NCBI GenBank assembly: GCA_027023025.1
Contig: JALVXB010000013.1
Coordinates: 1-44,856 of the forward strand
Reading direction: 5' to 3'
Length of the DNA stretch: 44,856 bases
Origin: Caldisericaceae bacterium
GTDB taxonomy: Bacteria; Caldisericota; Caldisericia; Caldisericales; Caldisericaceae
This document shows, piece after piece, positions 28,179 to 40,710 of the stretch. Within the stretch, counting starts at the first letter, position 1, and every line of letters starts with the position of its first letter. A program made the position numbers and the translations under genes. Under the pieces are notes generated by a model. It was not told the origin of the DNA. It was given only the letters and a program-made list of their open reading frames with translations, and made no database searches.

Positions 28179-28757
28179 GTTATAAGCAATTTCTCCTGTA
28201 ACTTTGCCGTAATACAAAAACACAAAGTAAAAATGGAAACGATAACAGAAAATAAACCTTTAAATTACATCTCTTTGAAAACCTGAATTTTTATGAACAC
28301 AGTTGGTGCTTTTCGCATCAGGCAAACACAAGTCCAATTAACCTCTCATAATTAGCAGTAATATAGAAAAAAGTAATTTAAATACAAAGTGCAAAAGTAT
28401 TTATCCAAAAACAAAAATTGTGACCGAATACAAATATTAATTATCAGCGTTCAGAATTTTACAGTTTAAAGTAACAAGCAAAATAAAAATACTCGTTAAT
28501 TGCCAAAGAACAATCACTTGAAATTTAAGTTCGATTTTACTCGTAATAAAACAAACCAATTTTTCAAAAATTTGAAATGTCTCGCTTACACCCCGTTTAA
28601 AAATTTCTACCCAGCATTACTTTCAACACGCACAGATGCTAAATATAAAAAAATCTAAAACACATACATCTCTTCAATATAAAAAACTACATAGGGAAAA
28701 TTAAGCGGCACAAACGAAAATCGCTTTTTAAAAAATTTACACTTAAAAGTATATTTA

Positions 28758-28850
28758 AAACAAAAAGCGAAAGGTCTTTGCCTTTCGCTTCCCTTTAAAT
28801 GATCAGAGACAATGTTTTCCCCAAAAAACATTCCCCTTGAAAACATTGAC
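28758..28850 (-). ncRNA. Candidate small RNA of about 90 bases, unknown class
   Basis: A perfect consensus promoter directs minus-strand transcription from about 28850. The RNA would contain a 10-bp stem CAATGTTTTC (28848-28839) / GAAAACATTG (28819-28810). The internal loop holds a second AATGTTTT (28832-28825) that can pair with the same right arm to give an alternative 8-bp hairpin. It ends in an intrinsic terminator at 28790-28765. No gene follows in the same direction before the peroxiredoxin, more than 1.2 kb on, so it stands alone. A reading frame from ATG at 28846 has no stop before the terminator, so it is unlikely to be an mRNA. I do not recognise it as a known riboswitch or 6S, SRP, RNase P or tmRNA. 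Confidence 0.6.
28765..28790 (-). terminator. Terminator of the candidate small RNA
   Basis: On minus: AAGCGAAAGG, loop CAAAGA, CCTTTCGCTT, then TTTGTTTT. A 10-bp perfect stem. Confidence 0.88.
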
Positions 28851-28855
28851 ACATT

Positions 28856-28884
28856 ATTATAACAAACTAAATTCACTTTGTCAA
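28856..28884 (-). promoter_or_regulatory. Perfect consensus promoter of the candidate small RNA
   Basis: On minus: TTGACA (28884-28879), exactly 17 bases, TATAAT (28861-28856). It is the only promoter I found here with both boxes perfect and optimal spacing, which suggests strong transcription. Confidence 0.8.
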
Positions 28885-28923
28885 ATTGATAATTCACAAC
28901 GGTAGGTAAACACAAGCAAAAAA

Positions 28924-28941
28924 CGGGCGCAAAAGCGCCCG
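28924..28941 (-). terminator. Terminator of the Mrp/Nuo-like operon
   Basis: On minus: CGGGCGC, loop TTTT, GCGCCCG, then TTTTTTG, 42 bases after the stop of the last gene. Confidence 0.88.
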
Positions 28942-28982
28942 CAAAATTTTACAGCCAAACAGTTTAAAGCTACTTCGGCAAA

Positions 28983-29543
28983 TTAATACGCCTTCTGGAA
29001 AATTCCGCTGATAATCGCACCGCCTGTTTCCGTAAGCAAACCGTAAACTGAAAGGTGCTGCTTTGTTTCCTTTTCCACACTCAGGATCTTTTCGAACTTT
29101 CCTTCGGGGTTGTCCACTTCTTTTCCGGTTTTCACGAATACGAGGTCGCCTGCTTTGAGATTATCTGCACGCACGAGCACTTCTTCTTCGTCTCGCAAAA
29201 CGGGAATCTGGTGGCTTGCACTTACGACGGTCTTTTTTCCTGATTCTGTTTTCACGACAAAAAGCGGCTCGTAAACTCTGCGCCTTATGATGTTCTGCAC
29301 CTTTACAAAGCCTGTTTTTCCCAAAACTTCCATAGGTTTTTCTTTAGGAATGTCTTTCAGCCAGATGTCTTCTTCTTTTGCAACGAGGCGTTCTGCAGGA
29401 TCGGCAAGCGTGAACATATTCCTGATCGTAAACACGCCTACTTTTCCGTCAAACTTAAGCACTACCGTTTCATTTTCGGAAAACCCATTATAGAAACGGT
29501 CCATTACAGGTTCCTGGAAGTAAATTTTATCTTTCAAGTTCAT
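28983..29543 (-). CDS. Stand-alone Hint-fold (hedgehog/intein-like) protein lacking the catalytic Cys
   Basis: 186 residues. The order of Hint motifs is visible: block A-like SENETVVLKFDGKVGVFTI (about 22-40), then EPLFVVKTESGKKTVVSASH (the block B region, with SASH for the usual TxxH), IPVLR, LVRADNLKAGDLVFVK (the A-x-x-L-x-x-GD motif) and a C-terminal SVYGLLTETGGAIISGI resembling the final Hint strand. The position of the splicing or cleaving Cys/Ser before block A holds Phe, and there is no terminal His-Asn. It should therefore not splice and may be a structural or binding module. It overlaps the NuoI-GltD-like gene by ATGA and is the last gene of the respiratory operon, so a role in assembling that complex is inferred. 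Confidence 0.7.
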   Translation of the reverse strand: MNLKDKIYFQEPVMDRFYNGFSENETVVLKFDGKVGVFTIRNMFTLADPAERLVAKEEDIWLKDIPKEKPMEVLGKTGFVKVQNIIRRRVYEPLFVVKTESGKKTVVSASHQIPVLRDEEEVLVRADNLKAGDLVFVKTGKEVDNPEGKFEKILSVEKETKQHLSVYGLLTETGGAIISGIFQKAY

Positions 29544-31369
29544 TTTTCCCTCCTGCTTTTTTCCTGCAAGTATCTGTCAATACCAATCGCAGCCCTGTGT
29601 CCGTTTGCTATTGCAGAAATTGCGTTGCCCTTCGAAGTAGGCACGAGATCTCCGCCAGCAAATACTCCAGGAATGGTTGTTTCACCGTATTCGTCGACCT
29701 GAACTCTACGCCTTGGAGTGAACTTCAGTTTCTCAAATATCTCTTTCGGTATAAACGAGAAGTCGTACATCTGTCCGACGGCTTCAATGATAAATTCTCC
29801 TTCCAGTACTTTCACCTGATCCTCAAAGAATGTCGGATGGAATCTGTGGTTTTCGTCAAATACCGACTTAACCTTCACGACTTCAAGGCCTTTGATTTTA
29901 CCGTTCTCGTCAAAGATTACCTGCTTGGGACCCCATCCCGGGTTAAAGATTACGCCTTCTTCAAGTGCACCTTCTATTTCTTCCTTTGATGCCGGCATAA
30001 TGTCCCAATCTTCAAGACTCACCGTTTGCACCATCGTATCAACGCCACCGTACGAAATGTGCTGAAGCCTTACGACCGTCCTTGCAACATCCATTGCCAC
30101 ATTTCCGCCTCCGATAACGATAACGCGTTTCGCAATGTTTCTGCGGCCTTCCACTTTTACCTGTCTAAGGAAGTCAATTGCCTGGATAACATCAGGGTGT
30201 TCCTCACCCTTCAGGTGGATTGATCTTCCGTAGGAAAGCCCTATTCCCAGGTAAACCGCATCGTAATCTTTCAGCAGGTCTTCAAACTTCACATCCTTTC
30301 CAACTTCTGTGTTCAGTTTAATTTCTACGCCCATAGACTTAATGTGGTTAATTTCCTTGTCCAATTCGTATATAGGTAACCTGTAAAGAGGAATACCCAG
30401 ACCAAGTGCTCCACCTGCACGCGGCCGTTTTTCAAATATCGTCACAGAATGCCCCATCGTTGCAAGGTAGTATGCAGCAGAAAGTCCGCTTGGGCCTGAG
30501 CCAATAATTGCAACTTTCTTTCCCGTAGGTGGCATTTTTTCGACTTCAACATCTTTATAGGTTTCCAACTGGTCTGTTGCAAAACGCTTCAGCCACATAA
30601 TTTGCAGAGCGTCTCCACGGTAGTTATACACGCAGTCGTCCTGGCAATTATGCGTACAGATCCTTCCACAGATACCCGGAAGTGCGTTATCTTCAAGCAT
30701 GTACTTTACTGAAAGTTTATTGTCACCGTCAAAAATTGCCTGTATGTATTCAGGAATTTTCATGTGAGCAGGACAGCCCTGCATACAAACACCGCAACCA
30801 AGACAACGCATTGCTTCTTTCCTCGCCTGCTCTTCGTTAAATCCGAGAATAATTTCTTCAAATGTCTTTTTACGGACGTCTGGTTCAAGTTCTGGCATTT
30901 CGACTTTTTCAAGCATAAGCGGCGTAATTTCGTCCGTCTGGGTAAACCCTGGCTCCCTATTCTGTTCTTTTGCGGGAATCCACACAAACGCATCTCCGTC
31001 CGTAGATGTGTAAATTAAGTCCTTTGAAAGTTGCAGAGAACCAGTCGGGCAAACTTCAACGCACAGTCCGCAATAAGAGCAGCGTCCGTAATCGATCTGG
31101 GGCCTTAACGGATTGGTGCCCTCTTTTACTTCCACTGGGTGTATAGGAGAAGGATCCACCATCGTAATTGCAGCACACGGGCATATATCTCTGCAGTTTC
31201 CGCATCCAATACACTTGTCAATGTCGTTTATGTGAAAACCTCTGTAACGCTCTGGAACGGGTTTTTCTTCCTTTGGGTACTGTAAAGTGTGCGGCTTTTT
31301 GAAAAGATACTTTACAGATGAAAGAGGTTTTAACAAACTGCCGTTTTCGTATTCTTTTTTATCCATCAT
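29540..31369 (-). CDS. Fusion: NuoI-like ferredoxin domain plus GltD/NfnB-like NAD(P)H oxidoreductase
   Basis: 609 residues. Residues 1-115 are NuoI/MbhN-like with two [4Fe-4S] motifs (Cys53, 56, 59, 63 and Cys97, 100, 103, 107). Residues from about 165 are the glutamate synthase small subunit/Nfn large subunit type: Cys189, 192, 195, 199 and Cys234, 238, 242, 246 for further clusters, FAD motif VAIIGSGPSGLSAAYYLA, NAD(P) motif VIVIGGGNVAMDVART, and a C-terminal GVFAGGDLV. The fusion would carry electrons between NAD(P)H flavin and the NuoB-like cluster. Two ATGs at 31369 and 31366 are both possible; AAGGGGT fits the second slightly better. Confidence 0.92.
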   Translation of the reverse strand: MMDKKEYENGSLLKPLSSVKYLFKKPHTLQYPKEEKPVPERYRGFHINDIDKCIGCGNCRDICPCAAITMVDPSPIHPVEVKEGTNPLRPQIDYGRCSYCGLCVEVCPTGSLQLSKDLIYTSTDGDAFVWIPAKEQNREPGFTQTDEITPLMLEKVEMPELEPDVRKKTFEEIILGFNEEQARKEAMRCLGCGVCMQGCPAHMKIPEYIQAIFDGDNKLSVKYMLEDNALPGICGRICTHNCQDDCVYNYRGDALQIMWLKRFATDQLETYKDVEVEKMPPTGKKVAIIGSGPSGLSAAYYLATMGHSVTIFEKRPRAGGALGLGIPLYRLPIYELDKEINHIKSMGVEIKLNTEVGKDVKFEDLLKDYDAVYLGIGLSYGRSIHLKGEEHPDVIQAIDFLRQVKVEGRRNIAKRVIVIGGGNVAMDVARTVVRLQHISYGGVDTMVQTVSLEDWDIMPASKEEIEGALEEGVIFNPGWGPKQVIFDENGKIKGLEVVKVKSVFDENHRFHPTFFEDQVKVLEGEFIIEAVGQMYDFSFIPKEIFEKLKFTPRRRVQVDEYGETTIPGVFAGGDLVPTSKGNAISAIANGHRAAIGIDRYLQEKSRREK

Positions 31370-31377
31370 CTCACCCC

Positions 31378-32481
31378 TTACCTATCAATTTCCGGAGGAC
31401 ATATATCCAAACTTAACAAAATGTGCGATGCATCGGCAAGCCTTGAGCCAACGAGCAACTTCTCTGCAATGGTAAACATGTGCGGCATTGATGCACCACG
31501 CACGGATACTCTGTATGGCCTACCCGTTCCGTCTGACACCATGTAGAAACCGTGTTCACCTCTCGTTGATTCCACTTTTGCATAGGTCTCACCCTCTGGC
31601 ACATACCACTTAAACGGGTTTGGCATCTTCGTCCACACAGGGCCGCTCTTCGGCATCTTCTTTACTGCCTGCTCTATGAGGTTTAGAGAGGTCTCGAGTT
31701 CAAAACGCCTTACGATTGCGCGCGCCCAGGAATCGCCTTCCTCCATAGTAGGAATTTCAAAGTCAAGATACGGATACGCCGCATACGGGTCGTCCTTTCT
31801 CACATCCTGCGCAACGCCTGTTGCTTTGAGAATTGGCCCAGTTGCACCCCACTCGAGTGCCTGCTCTTTCGTCACCTTTGCAACACCCTTTGCTCTGTGC
31901 GCAAACATTGCGTTCTTGAAAAACAGGTTATCGTAATCAATAAGTTTATCCTTCATATACTTCACATAGGAAAGCAGTTCGTCCGTCCATCCCTGGGGTA
32001 AGTCTCTTCGCACTCCACCTGGCCAGACATACATGTGGTACACACGAGCACCTGTAAGCTCTGAGAATAGGTCAATCGCATAGTCCCTGTCGCCAGTTGC
32101 CCACTGGCCAAGCGTGTAAAGCCCAAGTGAGCCTGCGTAACCGCCCATCCATAGGAGGTATGCAGTAACCCTTGCAAGTTCCAGCACGATCGTCCTGATG
32201 TACTTTGCACGCTCAGGAATTTCAACGCCCATAAGGTCCTCGACTGCCATCGAATACGCAGTTTCGTTAATGTCTGGCTCCGGCACGCAGATACGCGGTA
32301 TAAGCGCAAGGTTCTGGATGTAAAGCCTGTATTCCATTAACTTCTCAAACGCTCTGTGGAGATAACCCGGGTCGCCTTTTGCAGAAACAATCGTGTCGCC
32401 TTCAAGTTCGAGGTGAAGCGAAAAATTCCCCGGAATACCCGGATGGTTTGGACCTATAAAAAGTTCGTAACTCTTATTCAT
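31378..32481 (-). CDS. NuoD/MbxL-like large subunit, NiFe ligands reduced to two Cys
   Basis: 367 residues related to the 49-kDa subunit of complex I and the large subunit of group 4 NiFe hydrogenases: FIGPNHPGIPGNFSLHLELEGD, GYLHRAFEKLMEYRLYIQ, and TRGEHGFYMVSDGTGRPYR. Hydrogenases have two CxxC pairs; here they read RICVPE (Cys65, Glu68) and DICPPE (Cys361, Glu364), so half of the ligands are Glu. It is therefore not a classical hydrogenase and resembles Mbx/Mbs-type proteins. The ATG at 32481 follows GGAGG; it overlaps the NuoC-like gene by eight bases. Confidence 0.9.
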   Translation of the reverse strand: MNKSYELFIGPNHPGIPGNFSLHLELEGDTIVSAKGDPGYLHRAFEKLMEYRLYIQNLALIPRICVPEPDINETAYSMAVEDLMGVEIPERAKYIRTIVLELARVTAYLLWMGGYAGSLGLYTLGQWATGDRDYAIDLFSELTGARVYHMYVWPGGVRRDLPQGWTDELLSYVKYMKDKLIDYDNLFFKNAMFAHRAKGVAKVTKEQALEWGATGPILKATGVAQDVRKDDPYAAYPYLDFEIPTMEEGDSWARAIVRRFELETSLNLIEQAVKKMPKSGPVWTKMPNPFKWYVPEGETYAKVESTRGEHGFYMVSDGTGRPYRVSVRGASMPHMFTIAEKLLVGSRLADASHILLSLDICPPEIDR

Positions 32482-32974
32482 CTTTTGCCTCCAATTCCAC
32501 TTCGTCGTGATGTCTGAAAGGCTGGAAGTGTGCATTTACATACTTCATAGAATTGAAGTCCTTTCTTAGTGGTGGAACATCGCCCTTGAAGTTTTCGAGT
32601 ATGAACGGTTTGCCTGCATCTGCATTTCCTTCAACTTTTATACCAAACATCTCTGCAATTTCACGCTCGTAGGCATGTGCAGGCGGATAAATTATTGCAG
32701 CAGTCACAAGTTTAGGATTGTCTCTTGGAATATAAGTCCTTACAATGCAATTCACCTTTTCCCTGTTACTGTAAAGCACATAGAAGACCTCAAACTGTTC
32801 TTCGTTTATGCGGTCAACTGCACTGAGTAAGGAAAGTTGGTTGAAACCGATATTTTTCAGCACATACAGCACAGAGATAAGCTTGTCCTCTTTTACATCA
32901 ACAAATATTCTGTTGTCGCGCTGAACTTTTACATTTACCCCTTCAATGCCTTTTATTTTATCAAGCACGCTCAT
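32474..32974 (-). CDS. NuoC-like 30-kDa subunit (MbxK type)
   Basis: 166 residues. NuoC signature EREIAEMFGIKVEGNADAGKPF and the C-terminal motif DVPPLRKDFNSM. It is the small structural partner of the NuoD-like subunit in the hydrophilic arm. It overlaps the upstream NuoB-like gene by ATGA. Confidence 0.9.
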   Translation of the reverse strand: MSVLDKIKGIEGVNVKVQRDNRIFVDVKEDKLISVLYVLKNIGFNQLSLLSAVDRINEEQFEVFYVLYSNREKVNCIVRTYIPRDNPKLVTAAIIYPPAHAYEREIAEMFGIKVEGNADAGKPFILENFKGDVPPLRKDFNSMKYVNAHFQPFRHHDEVELEAKDE

Positions 32975-33483
32975 CCTAACACCTTCCTTTGATTGTTCTT
33001 ATAAAACTCGTAGTTTTGCTTGTAGCGCTTGTATCCGTCTGCTTTTCCGCTGTCTATGAGGTTCATCAGGTGCTTAAACATCGTAATAATCGCTTCAGGC
33101 CTCGGCATACATCCAGCAATGTAAACATCGACGGGAATGTACGCATCGAGCCTGTTGATTACTGAGTAAGAATCGTAGTAAATGCCGCCATTAATTGCAC
33201 AGGAGCCAAAACCTATTACATACTTTGGGTCAAGCATCTGTTCGTAAACAGTAATAATACGCTTTAGCGTTTTTACATTTACATAACCCGTAACAAGCAG
33301 GATGTCTGCCTGCCTTGGCGTAACATACGGAACGATTCCAAACCTTTCCATATCGTATCTGGAAGTCATCGTAGGAGGAAGTTCCATTGCTCCACAACCC
33401 GTACAGTAGTGCAGCATCCAGAGTGAGCGCTTCCTCAACATATTACTTATTGCTCTATATTGTTCTTCTGTCATTTTATCCAT
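32971..33483 (-). CDS. NuoB-like [4Fe-4S] subunit (MbxJ type)
   Basis: 170 residues. The proximal (N2-type) cluster ligands are seen in HYCTGCGAMELPP, IGFGSCAINGG and IAGCMPRPEAI. It passes electrons to the site in the NuoD-like subunit. GGAGGAG lies six bases before ATG. Confidence 0.94.
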   Translation of the reverse strand: MDKMTEEQYRAISNMLRKRSLWMLHYCTGCGAMELPPTMTSRYDMERFGIVPYVTPRQADILLVTGYVNVKTLKRIITVYEQMLDPKYVIGFGSCAINGGIYYDSYSVINRLDAYIPVDVYIAGCMPRPEAIITMFKHLMNLIDSGKADGYKRYKQNYEFYKNNQRKVLG

Positions 33484-33495
33484 AGCATACTCCTC

Positions 33496-34383
33496 CTATC
33501 TCACGAGCACGATGATAAGGCCCAGCAATGCAAGGATTGTAGGCCATCGCCAGTAAAACCTTACCGCATCGTCCACTCTGAAACGCGGCAAAACTTCGTC
33601 AAAGAAAACATAAATTACAAATATAACGAACATCTTTGCATAGAAGTAAAACAGATTAGATGCACCGCCCATAAACAGGTCAACGAACAGAGCAAGTTCT
33701 ATGTAAATGTGGAATGCATGATTGATCATCAAAAGGCCAAGGTGCTTTCCGCCGTACTCTGCCATAGGTCCCGTTGCAATTTCGTGAGGTGCAACGGCAA
33801 CATCAAACGGATGCTCTCCAAGTGCACCGTAAGTTACGATAAACCCAACAATTGCAGAAAGAGGCAAAAGCCACATTGCCCAGTGTCCACCTGTTTGCAT
33901 CTGCATAATTTTGTAAAGGTCAGTCGTATGGTACTTCATAACGAGCGTAATAACGACGATTACAAACGGAAGGTCGTAGCCGAGCATCAGCGTGAGTGCA
34001 CGCGCTATACCAATTGTGGAGTTCGGGTTTGCACTCTCACCAGCACCAAGTGCCATAACGAGCGAACCAATCACCATAATGTAAAGCAGCGCAATAAGGT
34101 CTGCTGAGCCAGTCATTAGCTTCATGCCCGGAATGGGAATAAAGAATATCACGGTCATTGAGGCAGCAAGTGCAAGAATTGGCCCCAGGTCGTACATAAT
34201 TCCGTGAGAAATGTTTTCCTGTTTGGAAAGCAGTTTAAATGTATCAATTAACGGCTGTATAAATGTCGGACCGTACCGCCTCTGGATTCTTGCTGCAATC
34301 TTCCGCTTAAACATCATAAACGAGACGCCAAATCCGTATGCAAGAAGCGGTATGCCAATTGCAATTAGTATCGTCCTTACCAT
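33496..34383 (-). CDS. NuoH-like membrane subunit (MbxM type)
   Basis: 295 residues with about eight hydrophobic helices. Motifs include KRKIAARIQRRYGPTFIQPLIDTFKLLSKQ, GESANPNSTIGIARALTL and EHPFDVAVAPHEIATGPMAEYGG. It links the hydrophilic arm to the ion-pumping subunits. It overlaps the upstream antiporter-like gene by 7 bases. Confidence 0.93.
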   Translation of the reverse strand: MVRTILIAIGIPLLAYGFGVSFMMFKRKIAARIQRRYGPTFIQPLIDTFKLLSKQENISHGIMYDLGPILALAASMTVIFFIPIPGMKLMTGSADLIALLYIMVIGSLVMALGAGESANPNSTIGIARALTLMLGYDLPFVIVVITLVMKYHTTDLYKIMQMQTGGHWAMWLLPLSAIVGFIVTYGALGEHPFDVAVAPHEIATGPMAEYGGKHLGLLMINHAFHIYIELALFVDLFMGGASNLFYFYAKMFVIFVIYVFFDEVLPRFRVDDAVRFYWRWPTILALLGLIIVLVR

Positions 34384-36257
34384 AATTTGCCTCCTATGAG
34401 CAACACGAATGCAACAATCGTAATTAGCACCACGATGTAAGAACTGTATGTTTCAAGGTTGCCCGTATACACTCTTCTCATGTAATCGCCAAACACTTTT
34501 GTGGCACGCGCCCAGGCCTCGTACATCTTATCAGCACTCCACTTGAAAATGGGATTTATCACTCTGCCGAAGAACATATAGAATCCGTAACTGTAGTTGT
34601 ACTTAGTTTCCGGAGTTACGACCTGTCCTGCAGCGTATGTATCGTACTGTGAAACAAACCTTTCTTTTGGAAGCATTAAGTAAAGAGCAAGCACTACGAT
34701 AAATGCAATAATCAAAACACTCGAGATGTTAATTACCTTAAGTGAACTCATTGCAGTCCCCTGAGGGAAACCGTAAAGAGTGTACTTAATCGGAGTGATG
34801 CCGAGGAATTTTTCTCCCTGCGCAATAACATTCATTGCAAGCCCCGGCCAGATGCCAAACACAATGGTAAGCGCAGAAAGAATCCATATGGGAAGCTGCA
34901 TAAGGAAAGGCACTTCTTTCACATCCTTATACTTTTCAGGAAGCTGTCCTAAAAATACGGAGTGGATAAAACGATATAGGTATAGGAAAGCGCCCGTACT
35001 TCCGACAAACGCCATAATAAGTAAGAATACTTCTTTTTTCTGCAGAAGCGCTTCGTATATCATCCACTTGGAAACGAACCCGTTTAGAGGCGGAACGCCC
35101 GAAAGTGCGACAATACCAAACAGCGCGCCAATAAATGACACGGGCATCTTTTTAATCAGTCCACCCAGTTCGCTCATATTACGCGTGCCCGTTCTGTAAA
35201 TTACGCCTCCAATTACGAAGAACAGCAAGCTTTTGAAAATTGCGTGGTTCAACGCATGGAACAAACCACCTGCAATTCCCAGGGAAGAACCCATTGCAAT
35301 GCCGAGCACCACATAGCCGATCTGAGATATGGAAGAATAAGCAAGCAACCTTTTTGCATCTTCCTGTAAAATTGCGAGGAATGTAGCCAGTACTATAGAA
35401 ATCGCTGCAAGCCATTCCACGATGTAAAGAAGAAGCGGAGTCGGCAAAATCGTAGGTGCGAGTTTTCCAATCAGTTGCACAGACAAAAATCCGTAGAATA
35501 AAACTGTTAATCCGTATGCACCCATCTTTATAAGCACGCCAGAAAGAAGCGGCGAAACAGGTGAAGGTGCTTCAGAGTGCGCATCTGGCAGCCAGGTGTG
35601 AAGCGGCATAACTGCTGCTTTTACGAACAGGCCAATGCCGAAGAGCACGAAGAACCAGATGACGAATGCAGGGGAGGATTGTGAGAGAAGCATCGACACA
35701 TTTTTGAACACGAGGCTGTGCGCACGCCCAAATACCATCGCAATTGCAACGAACATCGAGTATGCACCAATTACACTCATAATAATATACTTGTAGCCTG
35801 CAGTAATTGACTTCTTTCCTCCCTGGATAATAAGGAAGTAGGAAGTCCAGCTCATAAGTTCCCAGAACATAAAGAAGGTGATAAGGTCGCCGGCAAGGGT
35901 AATACCCAGCATCGCGCCTTCGACGAACAACAGTTCCAGATAGTAAAAGTCAAGTCCTTTATGGCCTTCCACATCGTTAATTGAGAACAAAATTACGAGA
36001 AAGGAAATACCCGTTACGATAAAAGCAAAGATCCACGAAATCGGGTTAATCTGCAAAACTAAAACAGAGCCAAAAAGCCTTCCCCACACATAATTTCCTA
36101 CCGTTGTGTTATAGAAAAAGAAGATTTCAATAAACGCAAGTAGAGAAAACAGAATAGCAAATGTGTATCGCACCCATCTGTGTATTTTGCCGCCAAGATA
36201 GGCAAGAATTCCACCGACAAACGGTGTGGCGAGCAATACACCCAGTGACATATCCAT
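34377..36257 (-). CDS. Antiporter-like membrane subunit (NuoL/MbxH' type)
   Basis: 626 residues, many transmembrane helices. Core motifs: TFFMFWELMSWTSYFLIIQG, KAAVMPLHTWLPDAHSEAPSPVSPLLSGVLIK, DAKRLLAYSSISQIGYVVLG and HALNHAIFKSLLFFVIGGVIY, which hold the charged residues used for ion transfer. The long C-terminal part (YAAGQVVTPETKYNYSYGFY onwards) carries an extra helical segment. It is the second of two MrpD-like subunits; two copies are a mark of Mbx/Mbs complexes. Confidence 0.93.
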   Translation of the reverse strand: MDMSLGVLLATPFVGGILAYLGGKIHRWVRYTFAILFSLLAFIEIFFFYNTTVGNYVWGRLFGSVLVLQINPISWIFAFIVTGISFLVILFSINDVEGHKGLDFYYLELLFVEGAMLGITLAGDLITFFMFWELMSWTSYFLIIQGGKKSITAGYKYIIMSVIGAYSMFVAIAMVFGRAHSLVFKNVSMLLSQSSPAFVIWFFVLFGIGLFVKAAVMPLHTWLPDAHSEAPSPVSPLLSGVLIKMGAYGLTVLFYGFLSVQLIGKLAPTILPTPLLLYIVEWLAAISIVLATFLAILQEDAKRLLAYSSISQIGYVVLGIAMGSSLGIAGGLFHALNHAIFKSLLFFVIGGVIYRTGTRNMSELGGLIKKMPVSFIGALFGIVALSGVPPLNGFVSKWMIYEALLQKKEVFLLIMAFVGSTGAFLYLYRFIHSVFLGQLPEKYKDVKEVPFLMQLPIWILSALTIVFGIWPGLAMNVIAQGEKFLGITPIKYTLYGFPQGTAMSSLKVINISSVLIIAFIVVLALYLMLPKERFVSQYDTYAAGQVVTPETKYNYSYGFYMFFGRVINPIFKWSADKMYEAWARATKVFGDYMRRVYTGNLETYSSYIVVLITIVAFVLLIGGKLW

Positions 36258-37744
36258 TATAGCCCTCCTAACACAGAATTAATGTACACGCTTCTTCCAA
36301 CGAGGTCAGCTGCAGCTTTATGAGCAAAGTTGATAACGGGTGTAGGATAGAAACTCAAAACGAGAATGATTACGACGAGGGTAATCGCAGGAATAAGCAT
36401 CCAGGCAGGTGCTTCACGCACTTCCTTTTCTTCTTTTGCTTCTTTAAAGAACATTACCTGCATTACTCTGAAGAAGTATGCAGCTTCTATAAGAGACATA
36501 AACAGCACAATTACGACAAACGCGATAGTATATACATTTACGCGCTCAAGCGTGGCAAAGATAATTTTCAGTTTGCTCCAGAACCCAAAGAACGGGGGGA
36601 GCCCCATTAAAGAGAATGCAGCAATTGCAAACAGGAATGCGCTTAGTTTCATCTTCCGTCCAATGCCTGCAAAGTCGTCTATGTTGCGTGAACCAACAGA
36701 GAAAATGATCCCACCCACGACGAGGAACAGCGTTGCCTTGGCAAGGGAGTGGTTCATCATCTGCAGGAAAGCACCCTGCATGCCATTTATGCTGCCAAGA
36801 GAAAACGCATAAAAGAAAAGTCCTGTCTGTCCAATCGTGGAATACGCAAGCATCCTCTTAATGTCTTTCTGGAAGAATGCCGCAGTTTCACCAAACATCA
36901 AAGTAAGCAAACCAAACAGAATAAGGAATAATATAACCTGATAGTAATTAAAGATCGTAACAGTCACCCTGATAATTCCGTAAATTGCAGCAGTCGTCAT
37001 AATACCTGAAAGGATTGAAGAAACGGACGACGGTGCTGCAGGGTGCGCATCGGGCAGCCAGGCATTCAACGGGAAAAGTGCGCCTTCTATGCCCAAACCC
37101 GTAAATATAAACGCATAAGGCAATAATTTTTGCTTGAATGTGAAACGCATAATCTTTTCTGCAATGTCTGCCATATTCAGCGTGCCGGTTGCAGCATACA
37201 GCATTACCACGCCGATAAGCAAAAGCGAGGCACCGATAGAACCCATAACGAGATACTTGAAACCTGCTTCTGCAGCATCTTTATCCCTGTGGAAGCCGAC
37301 GAGCCCAAATGCTGAAATTGAAGTTACTTCAAATGCAACGAACATATTAAAGAGGTCGCCCGTAACTATCATCCAGGTAATGCCCGTAACGAGAAGGGTA
37401 AACAAAATGTGGAATTTTTCAGCAGGTTCTTCTTTTATATAAACGAGATTGTAAATGGAAACGAGGAAACCCAGAAGTGTAGCAATCAATACGAGGAACA
37501 GGCTCAGTCTATCCACTGCCACATTGATTGCAAACGGTGGCTTAATTCCTGCAGTAGTTGCAATAACGATTCCATTATCTAAAACATCAGGAATCAATTC
37601 AAAAACGACGAGAAGATTTAAACCGAATGCAATCACAGGAATGTACTTTACGCCTTTTTTAAGCCACGGTGCAAGCACTGCTATAAGAAATGCAAAAAGC
37701 AAAGGAATTGCAATCAGTAAAATGGGATTTGCTATGTTTACCAT
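36257..37744 (-). CDS. MrpD-type antiporter subunit (MbxH type)
   Basis: 495 residues. GDLFNMFVAFEVTSISAFGLVG, EGALFPLNAWLPDAHPAAPSSVSSILSG, DIKRMLAYSTIGQTGLFFYA and MMNHSLAKATLFLVVGGIIF are typical MrpD/NuoN blocks. It is a Na+/H+ exchanging subunit. It overlaps mrpC by 7 bases and touches the next gene at one base. Confidence 0.94.
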   Translation of the reverse strand: MVNIANPILLIAIPLLFAFLIAVLAPWLKKGVKYIPVIAFGLNLLVVFELIPDVLDNGIVIATTAGIKPPFAINVAVDRLSLFLVLIATLLGFLVSIYNLVYIKEEPAEKFHILFTLLVTGITWMIVTGDLFNMFVAFEVTSISAFGLVGFHRDKDAAEAGFKYLVMGSIGASLLLIGVVMLYAATGTLNMADIAEKIMRFTFKQKLLPYAFIFTGLGIEGALFPLNAWLPDAHPAAPSSVSSILSGIMTTAAIYGIIRVTVTIFNYYQVILFLILFGLLTLMFGETAAFFQKDIKRMLAYSTIGQTGLFFYAFSLGSINGMQGAFLQMMNHSLAKATLFLVVGGIIFSVGSRNIDDFAGIGRKMKLSAFLFAIAAFSLMGLPPFFGFWSKLKIIFATLERVNVYTIAFVVIVLFMSLIEAAYFFRVMQVMFFKEAKEEKEVREAPAWMLIPAITLVVIILVLSFYPTPVINFAHKAAADLVGRSVYINSVLGGL

Positions 37745-38079
37745 TTCAAACTCCTTATCTTCTTAATGTCAAGTGTTCCGTAATGCCTGTAAAGGATTAC
37801 GACGAACGCAGCAGCAAGGGCAAGTTCTGATGCACCAATAACAATTGCAGTAAGAGTGAGTGCTTGAGGAACAGGGTCAACCATCATCTTTGCAAGAATG
37901 TTTCCTTTCGAAAAAATTGGGGCTGTGCCACCTTTTACATAACCAATGCTCACGATGAGCAGGTTAGTTCCGGAAGCAATAAGGTCAAGCCCAATTAAAA
38001 TTTTGATCAAGTTTTTCTTTATAATAATTGCATAAAGGCCAATTGCAATAAGAAGGAATGCGCCAATGTAGTAAATCAT
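37738..38079 (-). CDS. mrpC: MrpC-like (NuoK-like) antiporter subunit
   Basis: 113 residues with three helices: IGAFLLIAIGLYAIIIKKNL, IKILIGLDLIASGTNLLIVS and DPVPQALTLTAIVIGASELALA, the standard MrpC/NuoK pattern. It overlaps its upstream neighbour by ATGA. Confidence 0.93.
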   Translation of the reverse strand: MIYYIGAFLLIAIGLYAIIIKKNLIKILIGLDLIASGTNLLIVSIGYVKGGTAPIFSKGNILAKMMVDPVPQALTLTAIVIGASELALAAAFVVILYRHYGTLDIKKIRSLKW

Positions 38080-38789
38080 TTTTCACCTCCGCTGCAAACA
38101 GCCTCGCACATCATATCGTCCACAATGCCAGCAAATTCTGATGCTACCTTAAAACCAATCGCAATGTAAATAATCGGTAAAATTCCGGCACTGAAAATCA
38201 TATTGAGTTGCCCTTTGGGTAAGAAGTTAAACAGGAAAGAGTTTCCCTGCGTAAACAGTCCCCAGAGGCCAAGCCCTGCAAATGTAATGCCAGCAATTCC
38301 TTCAACGACTGAAAGTTTACTTCTGTTCACCCTTTCACCAGGGTATGCAAGATAAAGCAAAAGGAATCCAGATGCAATAATTGAGCCTCCCTGGAAACCT
38401 CCGCCCGGCGTTAAGTGACCGTGGATGAAGATGTACGAACCAAATAGAAGAATGAACGGGAAGATAATTCTCGAACCTACGCGCACAACGAAGTTCGGAT
38501 AAACCTGCCTCTCTCTTTTCTTTTTGTCTTCTTCGAGTACATAGAACAGAATTGCGACACCTGTAGCCGCAGCAAACAACACGGTAACTTCTCCAAGCGT
38601 ATCAAATCCTCTGTAGTCAAGCGTTACCGCAGTGACCACATTTGCCGCGCCAGTTTGGTTTATATCGTTTTTTAAGTAATACTTGCCAACTGCCATTTTG
38701 TTTTTTCCGAACGGGAAGGCAGCAAAGAAAAGAATTAGAGACAGAACAATTATGCCGAGAAAAATACCGTATGTAATTTTACGAATCAT
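38076..38789 (-). CDS. Fused MbhE-like and MrpB-like subunit
   Basis: 237 residues. The N-terminal part has DYRGFDTLGEVTVLFAAATG, typical of MbhE/MrpA C-terminal segments; the second half is MrpB, with FIHGHLTPGGGFQGGSIIASG. In many Mrp operons these are separate genes. It overlaps both neighbours by 4 bases. Confidence 0.9.
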   Translation of the reverse strand: MIRKITYGIFLGIIVLSLILFFAAFPFGKNKMAVGKYYLKNDINQTGAANVVTAVTLDYRGFDTLGEVTVLFAAATGVAILFYVLEEDKKKRERQVYPNFVVRVGSRIIFPFILLFGSYIFIHGHLTPGGGFQGGSIIASGFLLLYLAYPGERVNRSKLSVVEGIAGITFAGLGLWGLFTQGNSFLFNFLPKGQLNMIFSAGILPIIYIAIGFKVASEFAGIVDDMMCEAVCSGGEK

Positions 38790-39025
38790 TTTTCTCTCCT
38801 TTCTGTCTTTCTCACGACAATTATATAAATAGCCATAGTAAGTGCAGCACCAATACTCGCTTCTGCCATAGCAACATCAGGCGCCTGCAAAAACAGGAAA
38901 AGAAGTGAGATAATCAAACTTACCGCACCCATCGCAACGACAGCAGCAATCAAGTCTTTGAATTCTATGGAGAGAATTGCAAGAACGATCATCGCAATAA
39001 TGAGCAACCAGGACGCGTATATCAT
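38786..39025 (-). CDS. MbhD-like (DUF4040) membrane subunit
   Basis: 79 residues, three helices. FKDLIAAVVAMGAVSLIISL and LQAPDVAMAEASIGAALTMA match the MbhD domain, which in standard Mrp systems is part of MrpA. It overlaps mrpG by ATGA. Confidence 0.88.
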   Translation of the reverse strand: MIYASWLLIIAMIVLAILSIEFKDLIAAVVAMGAVSLIISLLFLFLQAPDVAMAEASIGAALTMAIYIIVVRKTERREK

Positions 39026-39369
39026 TTCGTTTCCTCCTTTTCACCTTCTCCAAAAAATTCCTTGCCTTTATCAACAATGGTTCTTTTATCAAGTGGTACA
39101 CCGGTTTTATAACCTGCACGCATAAGGGCACTGGAACTAACAGGAGCAGTAAGTAGAATAAATAGTGCAACGACTAAGCACTTCACAAACCACTGCGGGT
39201 ACAGTACGCCAACGCCAAGCACAGAAGAAAGCGCGCCAAGCGTAGTGGACTTCGTAGATGCCTGCATTCTCGTGTAAAGATCGGGCAAACGGATTAAACC
39301 AAATGCACCTAAAAAGAGAAATGCCGCACCAAAGTAAAGAAGGAAGTACCCTATGATTATTTTTACCAT
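39022..39369 (-). CDS. mrpG: MrpG antiporter subunit
   Basis: 115 residues. GLIRLPDLYTRMQASTKSTT is the MrpG signature; three helices follow the usual pattern. The ATG at 39369 follows GAGGGGGT and the mrpF stop by one base; the frame upstream belongs to the end of mrpF. Confidence 0.92.
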   Translation of the reverse strand: MVKIIIGYFLLYFGAAFLFLGAFGLIRLPDLYTRMQASTKSTTLGALSSVLGVGVLYPQWFVKCLVVALFILLTAPVSSSALMRAGYKTGVPLDKRTIVDKGKEFFGEGEKEETK

Positions 39370-39370
39370 A

Positions 39371-39628
39371 TCAGAACCCCCTCTCAATAAACCGCGCAAT
39401 TACGAGGACACCAATAAACGCAAGTAGTCCGTACACGAGTGCAACATCAATGTAGATGTATCGCTGGAAGATCATTGCAAAGAAAACAAACAGTGCAATT
39501 GTGATCGTGGTAAGCACATCCAGCCCAATCACCCTGTTCGTCAGGTCAGGGCCTGCGATCATTCTTACGACTGCCAGAATAATACCCACAGAAACGATAA
39601 TTAGATAGATCCAATTTAGTATGCTCAT
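39371..39628 (-). CDS. mrpF: MrpF antiporter subunit
   Basis: 85 residues with three helices; MIAGPDLTNRVIGLDVLTT is the MrpF motif. It overlaps mrpE by ATGA. Confidence 0.93.
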   Translation of the reverse strand: MSILNWIYLIIVSVGIILAVVRMIAGPDLTNRVIGLDVLTTITIALFVFFAMIFQRYIYIDVALVYGLLAFIGVLVIARFIERGF

Positions 39629-40131
39629 CCGAAGATCTCCTTTAAGAATTTCTCAAACCGCCCGCCAATTTCGCGGGTTGCACCCTCTACAGTTTCTTCC
39701 TTCACATAGATCCAGTGGACAAGTAGCGTGTCGTCTTTGACATCAATAGTCAGTGTGCCTGGAGTAAGCGTAATAGAGTTTGCAAGTGCAAGTTTGCCCG
39801 TGTCCGTCTTGAGGTCTGTATGGACTTCGACGATTCCGGGCTTTATCGGCATACTTGGAGCAAGCACTCTATAAGCCATGTCAAAGTTTGCAAGTATCAT
39901 TTCCCACAAGTAGTAAGGAATGTAGATAGCTAAATACCATAAGCGTTTCGGAGAAAGATGCTTCAAGCCGTACTCACTCAGGTAGTCATAAGTTCCAATA
40001 GCAACGAGCAAAGAGACTATCAAACCTACGATAAGTTCGTCTTTACGAAAAGTTGCAGTTAGAAGAATCCATGATACATAAAGCACGATTACAGCGAAAA
40101 TGTACCTGTTGAATTTCCCTGCCTTTTCCAT
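39625..40131 (-). CDS. mrpE: MrpE antiporter subunit
   Basis: 168 residues: two N-terminal helices, then YIPYYLWEMILANFDMAYRV and NSITLTPGTLTIDVKDDTLLVHWIYV, the MrpE signature. First gene of the 14-gene operon. The ATG at 40131 has AAAGGTGG six bases upstream; the upstream in-frame start lacks a site. Confidence 0.93.
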   Translation of the reverse strand: MEKAGKFNRYIFAVIVLYVSWILLTATFRKDELIVGLIVSLLVAIGTYDYLSEYGLKHLSPKRLWYLAIYIPYYLWEMILANFDMAYRVLAPSMPIKPGIVEVHTDLKTDTGKLALANSITLTPGTLTIDVKDDTLLVHWIYVKEETVEGATREIGGRFEKFLKEIFG

Positions 40132-40190
40132 TTTCCACCACCTTTCATTCGTAATAAATACCAATTCAATTTTAACTTTTTAAAGTGTTC

Positions 40191-40393: not shown

Positions 40394-40401
40394 CATTTGT
40401 G

Positions 40402-40710
40402 ATGAAAGAGAACAAAGTAAACAGCGTAAAAAACAGAGCACAGTGCAATACAATAGAAAAAATTGCAAAGGCAATGAGCGGAGAAACACGCGTAAGGATT
40501 TTGTGCCTAATAGCAAAACAGGAACTGAATGTGGGAGAAATTGCAGAAGCACTTAACCTTACGCAGTCCACCACCTCGCTCAGCCTAGAGAAGCTATTTA
40601 ACGAGAAACTCGTCACGAAAAAAAGAAGAGGAAAATTTGTTTACTACAGCACGAATAAAAAACGCATAGAAGTATTTTTAAAGTTGATAACCCAAACATT
40701 TTTAAAATAA
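40402..40710 (+). CDS. ArsR-family transcriptional regulator
   Basis: 102 residues with a winged helix: IAKAMSGETRVRILCLIAKQELNVGEIAEALNLTQSTTSLSLEKL and KKRRGKFVYYST. The cysteines (Cys15 near the N-terminus and one in the second helix) are not in the classic metal-binding CVC motif, so the signal may be redox or another cue rather than arsenic. A GTG one codon earlier is also possible. It likely controls the genes that follow, the divergent mrpE operon, or both. Confidence 0.88.
   Translation: MKENKVNSVKNRAQCNTIEKIAKAMSGETRVRILCLIAKQELNVGEIAEALNLTQSTTSLSLEKLFNEKLVTKKRRGKFVYYSTNKKRIEVFLKLITQTFLK

Follow-up and report, generated by a model that had tools for sequence, protein, structure and literature searches.

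A Non-Splicing Hint Protein Closes a Respiratory Operon in Two Groups of Heat-Loving Bacteria and Is Probably an Accessory Part of the Enzyme

Introduction

What does a protein with the fold of an intein do as the last gene of a respiratory operon? Accessory subunits and assembly factors of complex I are small, lineage-specific proteins on a conserved core complex; to our knowledge, none of them has a Hint fold, and the known Hint domains act on their own chain. Published accounts describe autoprocessing for Hint-family proteins (PMC7664689) and a use as splicing switches for exapted inteins (PMC8987985). In the open-access literature we found no report of the protein treated here, nor of any Hint protein in a respiratory operon. 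It is encoded in a stretch of 44,856 nucleotides from a Caldisericaceae bacterium (GCA_027023025.1, contig JALVXB010000013.1), hereafter the window. The placement of the source organism in Caldisericota agrees with the protein itself, which shares 97% identity with its counterpart in a Caldisericales MAG.

Results

The gene occupies positions 28983-29543 of the (-) strand and is an open reading frame of 186 amino acids plus stop, with its own start codon and no cysteine. The Pfam family Intein_splicing (PF14890) matched the protein with 38.7 bits (E 1.1e-9), above the curated cutoff of 35.8. The top match in a single-sequence search of the PDB was the mini-intein of Mja TFIIB (E 2.6e-7), and a profile of the protein's own family retrieved the Mja KlbA intein (E 1.5e-5). 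An AlphaFold2 model based on a 13-sequence alignment reached a mean pLDDT of 73.6 and a pTM of 0.61. When this model was searched with Foldseek, all 43 PDB matches at E<=1e-3 were inteins, Hedgehog or BIL domains, with TM-scores of up to ~0.6. The ordered blocks of a Hint domain, which the initial annotation had read from the letters, were borne out by the Pfam, PDB and Foldseek matches, and the structure prediction that it had proposed as a check gave a Hint-like model. With both the fold and the ordered sequence blocks of the Hint superfamily found, the identity of the protein as a Hint protein is settled at the level of the fold, as judged from sequence matches and a predicted structure. 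A redox or metal protein was ruled out, there being no cysteine and H111 being the sole conserved histidine.

The residues needed for splicing were then compared with those of inteins. Alignments of block A (residues 21-31; 29451-29483, (-) strand) place either F21 or G20 at the position of Cys1. The two registers are one residue apart: anchoring on Thr26 gives F/Y21, and alignment with the TFIIB intein or TIGR01445 gives G20. In both of them, and in all 13 aligned sequences, the residue is a non-nucleophile, neither the Cys, Ser or Thr of position 1 nor the Ala of class 2 inteins. The earlier identification of Phe at the nucleophile position thus holds as to the loss of the nucleophile, and as to Phe under the Thr26 anchoring, but the other register moves it by one residue to Gly. 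An invariant Ser22 adjoins both candidate positions. In blocks F and G (residues 164-186; 28986-29054, (-) strand), alignment with the KlbA intein shows Gly168 in place of the block F Asp and Gly175 in place of the block F His; according to the family alignment, the latter is Gly in the window protein and not in all relatives. The C-terminus of the family is Lys-Ala/Ser-Tyr, about one residue from where inteins end in His-Asn, and the terminal Tyr is present in 13 of 13 sequences where inteins have Asn or Gln. The window protein itself ends in K-A-Y-COOH, in agreement with the reported lack of a terminal Asn.

Features of other routes to splicing or cleavage were also looked for. The W-C-T motif of class 3 inteins is missing from this cysteine-free protein; instead of lying in frame between the N- and C-exteins of a host, it has its own reading frame, which ends at the Hint C-terminus. 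For autocleavage of the BIL or Hog type, it appears to offer only a 20-residue N-terminal arm and no nucleophile at residue 1. An intein inside the neighbouring fusion gene was ruled out as well, since the fusion runs to its full length and the Hint reading frame begins at a start codon of its own. With Cys1, both block F residues (Asp and His) and the closing His-Asn all gone, splicing by this protein is excluded on known mechanisms, so far as its residues can tell. What had been described as a protein without splicing residues nevertheless keeps one element that was not noted at first: the block B motif S108-x-S110-H111 (29211-29222, (-) strand), identified in the intein and family alignments as the counterpart of the intein T-x-x-H with Ser replacing Thr, is invariant in 13 of 13 family sequences. 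Some residual chemistry is conceivable on this reading of the alignment, given that neither S-x-S-H nor S22 varies.

The gene directly follows a PRK13984-like NuoI-GltD fusion (29540-31369, (-) strand), which profile matches and the loci of relatives identify as its obligate genomic partner. The rest of the Mrp/Nuo-type (Mbx-like) operon (31378-40164, (-) strand) encodes NuoD, NuoC, NuoB, NuoH, two NuoL/N-type antiporter subunits, and MrpC, MrpB, MrpG, MrpF and MrpE, the Mrp subunits being named from similarity and gene order rather than from a family search. The stop codon of the fusion overlaps the start codon of the Hint gene in an ATGA (29540-29543, (-) strand), and the translational coupling proposed in the initial annotation is real in the sense that this 4-nt overlap recurs in the nearest relatives; in more distant relatives the two genes are separated by a short spacer that carries a ribosome site of the GGAGG type. 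The Hint gene is the last of the operon and is followed by an intrinsic-terminator-like hairpin (28923-28942, (-) strand).

Two neighbouring elements were also observed. Downstream of this terminator, at 28755-28884 on the (-) strand, stands a perfect sigma-70-like promoter (12/12), which reads TTGACA-17-TATAAT and has its second hexamer preceded by TG; the ~96 nt that follow it fold into two hairpins (z -3.7), the second of which is terminator-like. The stretch is highly conserved at the related locus L010, a search of Rfam returned no family above cutoff, and it is a candidate small RNA. Divergent from the operon and upstream of it, a small open reading frame at 40399-40710 on the (+) strand resembles ArsR-type regulators on sequence impression and may control the operon.

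The gene is kept under constraint. For close pairs the dN/dS values were 0.02-0.06 (distant pairs are poorly estimable because synonymous sites are saturated), and the gene was intact in 14 of 14 genomes; it is under strong purifying selection. Its protein diverges faster than the fusion, with 65% versus 91% identity between the window and locus L011. Conservation is uneven along the chain. The N-terminal arm (residues 1-20; 29484-29543, (-) strand) lies outside the Hint fold, as delimited by the alignment, a conservation test and low pLDDT, whether the protein was modelled by itself or in the read-through described below, and its conservation exceeds that of the Hint body. Of the 22 N-terminal residues, all ahead of the Hint fold or at its beginning, 14 are invariant or nearly so, against 41 of the remaining 164 (Fisher p 4e-4, uncorrected for relatedness), and D5, I7, E11, P12, D15, F17, N19 and G20 of the arm are invariant. 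Within the body, the family alignment shows a family-specific invariant loop, E51-R52...K56-x-E58-x-I60-W61-x-K63 (29355-29393, (-) strand).

The distribution of the gene was strictly tied to that of the fusion. Nine of 54 Caldisericota genomes and 5 of 25 genomes of the Desulfurella class contained the Hint gene, and the fusion occurred in the same nine and the same five, that is, in 14 of 79 genomes when the two groups are pooled. In all 14 the Hint gene came directly after the fusion and was last (in G066 as judged from coordinates). A sixth match in the Desulfurella class, L038 (G076:C15), was rejected as an ordinary intein within an 1866-residue frame. No other intein was found in the window genome.

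We also searched a domain-wide set of 386 genomes, with Thermotoga maritima as the positive control, and found a close PRK13984-type fusion in 21. The 12 fusion-bearing genomes outside Caldisericota had no Hint gene, either beside the fusion or elsewhere in the genome, and shared the operon layout where the contig allowed. Neither did the Hint gene occur in 103 genomes from the phylum of the top fusion match, and with the gene missing from these and from the 12, a general component of Mbx complexes was ruled out. The operons without it include the sister clade of the Hint-bearing ones, where a survey of one phylum covered only four genomes and carries little weight. The survey of Mbx-type operons that had been suggested at the outset gave a divided answer: every close relative of the operon has the gene, but the 12 more distant ones with the same fusion lack it. 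In a maximum-likelihood tree of the fusion, all Hint-bearing proteins formed one clade (100/100), inside which the Desulfurellales were nested among the Caldisericota. This nesting indicates that the operon was transferred together with its Hint gene between phyla, into the Desulfurellales, and the absence of the gene from related operons elsewhere (the 12 genomes, sister clade included) leads us to conclude from the tree and the survey that it arose once, in this branch. At loci L012, L013, L014 and L015, Desulfurellales MAGs have the operon of the Caldisericota type in full, with protein identities reaching ~80%, which looks like a transfer between phyla.

Which subunit might be the partner was approached through residues fixed in the presence of the Hint gene and never found in other operons. 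These clade-specific invariants numbered 33 of 609 positions in the fusion, 9 of 385 in NuoD, 4 of 170 in NuoB and 2 of 166 in NuoC, so that among soluble subunits they are densest in the fusion. Several of them lie beside its Fe-S ligands (C65, M196-Q197-G198 and Q243-x-D245-x-V247-Y248). The MrpD-like subunit, MrpB and MrpC had densities like that of the fusion or above it, with sometimes no more than two to six sequences compared, and because of these membrane subunits the signal pointing to the fusion as the partner is suggestive only. Residue 65 of the fusion (31175-31177, (-) strand) is an extra cysteine, forming C-P-C beside a NuoI-type Fe-S cluster motif in all Hint-bearing fusions compared and absent from 12 of 12 other fusions. 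One Desulfurellales locus provides a natural in-frame read-through of the fusion plus Hint; its predicted fold (pTM 0.59), from a shallow alignment and with the NuoI half poorly predicted, did not order the N-terminal arm, residues 605-629 staying below pLDDT 50.

Discussion

The association of the Hint gene with the NuoI-GltD operon is strongly supported by genome sequences. The gene shares both the location and the inheritance of the operon, as that of a subunit should, and we consider it somewhat likely that a domesticated, non-splicing Hint module works here in the cytoplasm as a soluble subunit, either accessory or for assembly, of the Mrp/Nuo-type NAD(P)H-linked complex, its most likely place being the NuoI-GltD end. 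For the stricter statement, that the module has lost its splicing chemistry and become an obligate structural or regulatory subunit of an ion-pumping respiratory complex, docked through its ex-extein arms and playing a non-autocatalytic role in energy metabolism, we see about an even chance. We infer binding to the complex along the following lines. The inert Hint horseshoe would serve as a scaffold at the peripheral arm, and the conserved N-terminal arm and the invariant Lys-x-Tyr C-terminus, which leave the fold at the former extein sites, would be its docking elements. Bound to the fusion, the protein might stabilise it, guide its assembly, or adjust how electrons pass between the flavin/Fe-S domain of GltD and the NuoI clusters. 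Against a subunit it can be said that related operons work without the gene, that the protein diverges faster than the fusion, that the read-through fold lent docking no support and that S-x-S-H and S22 would allow some residual chemistry. The initial annotation had imagined that an Mrp-coupled complex took over the fold of a dead intein. The fold, the lost residues, selection and the co-occurrence and adjacency in 14 genomes of two phyla all fit this picture, which is partly supported; the gene is no general Mbx feature, and its product may be a subunit, an assembly factor or something else.

The main rival is that Hint chemistry persists, in the form of autoprocessing of the protein's own N-terminal arm or of a partner. 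S22 would then be the nucleophile, an unusual one, and S108 and H111 of block B the catalysts. The invariance of these residues in the 13 aligned sequences and of N19-G20 just before S22 speaks for it, as does a literature note that the Hint superfamily accepts widely varying residues in its active sites (PMC7664689). We nevertheless regard it as unlikely: S22 misses the canonical position 1 by one or two residues, neither the Asp and His of block F nor a terminal His-Asn is left, there is no C-extein, and the arm is conserved like a functional part and unlike a discarded peptide. That same conservation, of both the arm and the C-terminus, weighs against a decaying, functionless intein remnant hitch-hiking with the operon. 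The lost splicing residues and the lack of any other intein in the genome would suit such a remnant, but intactness in 14 of 14 genomes and above all the dN/dS values essentially rule it out, and we hold it to be very improbable.

The remaining rivals accept a function and place it elsewhere. A regulator or sensor that shares the operon of the complex but acts outside it, for example by controlling its synthesis or responding to redox or energy state, would agree with a small, soluble, operon-last protein that evolves faster than the enzyme subunits. It is rather unlikely in our view: neither Pfam nor the alignment revealed a DNA-binding, receiver, cysteine or metal motif, and such a role would leave unexplained why the gene is tied to a single operon clade. 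Still more doubtful is an accessory factor for the Mrp antiporter or the NuoB/C/D module that follows the fusion only as the operon ends there. The operon subunits all travel together and gene order alone names no partner, but the overlap or short spacing with the fusion, and the density of clade-specific invariants, highest there among soluble subunits, argue for the fusion.

If the accessory subunit is real, it would show that proteins can take up the fold of a selfish element as an everyday component, strongly selected for another purpose, tied to one respiratory operon and moved with it between phyla. This branch of the Mrp-coupled respiratory complexes has been little studied, and the Hint protein gives it a simple, testable candidate for an accessory subunit.

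The nearest structural relatives, the archaeal mini-inteins (Mja TFIIB, 5o9j; Mja KlbA, 2jmz; Pho RadA, 4e2t), resemble the window protein in their near-full-length Hint fold, in the patterns of blocks A, B and F and in the S/T-x-x-H motif, but it stands alone and lacks Cys/Ser/Ala1, the block F Asp and His, the terminal His-Asn and a C-extein. BIL and Hedgehog Hog domains, which were matched in the fold search, are likewise endonuclease-free Hint domains with host functions. They autoprocess an attached N-terminal domain via a Cys1-type nucleophile, whereas the window protein has a 20-residue arm and no such nucleophile. The Thermotoga-type Mbx operon (PRK13984 / NF010590) has the same layout and ends in the NuoI-GltD fusion; none of the other 12 fusion-bearing genomes has the Hint gene. 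Finally, the protein is like the accessory subunits and assembly factors of respiratory complex I in being a small, lineage-specific addition to a conserved core.
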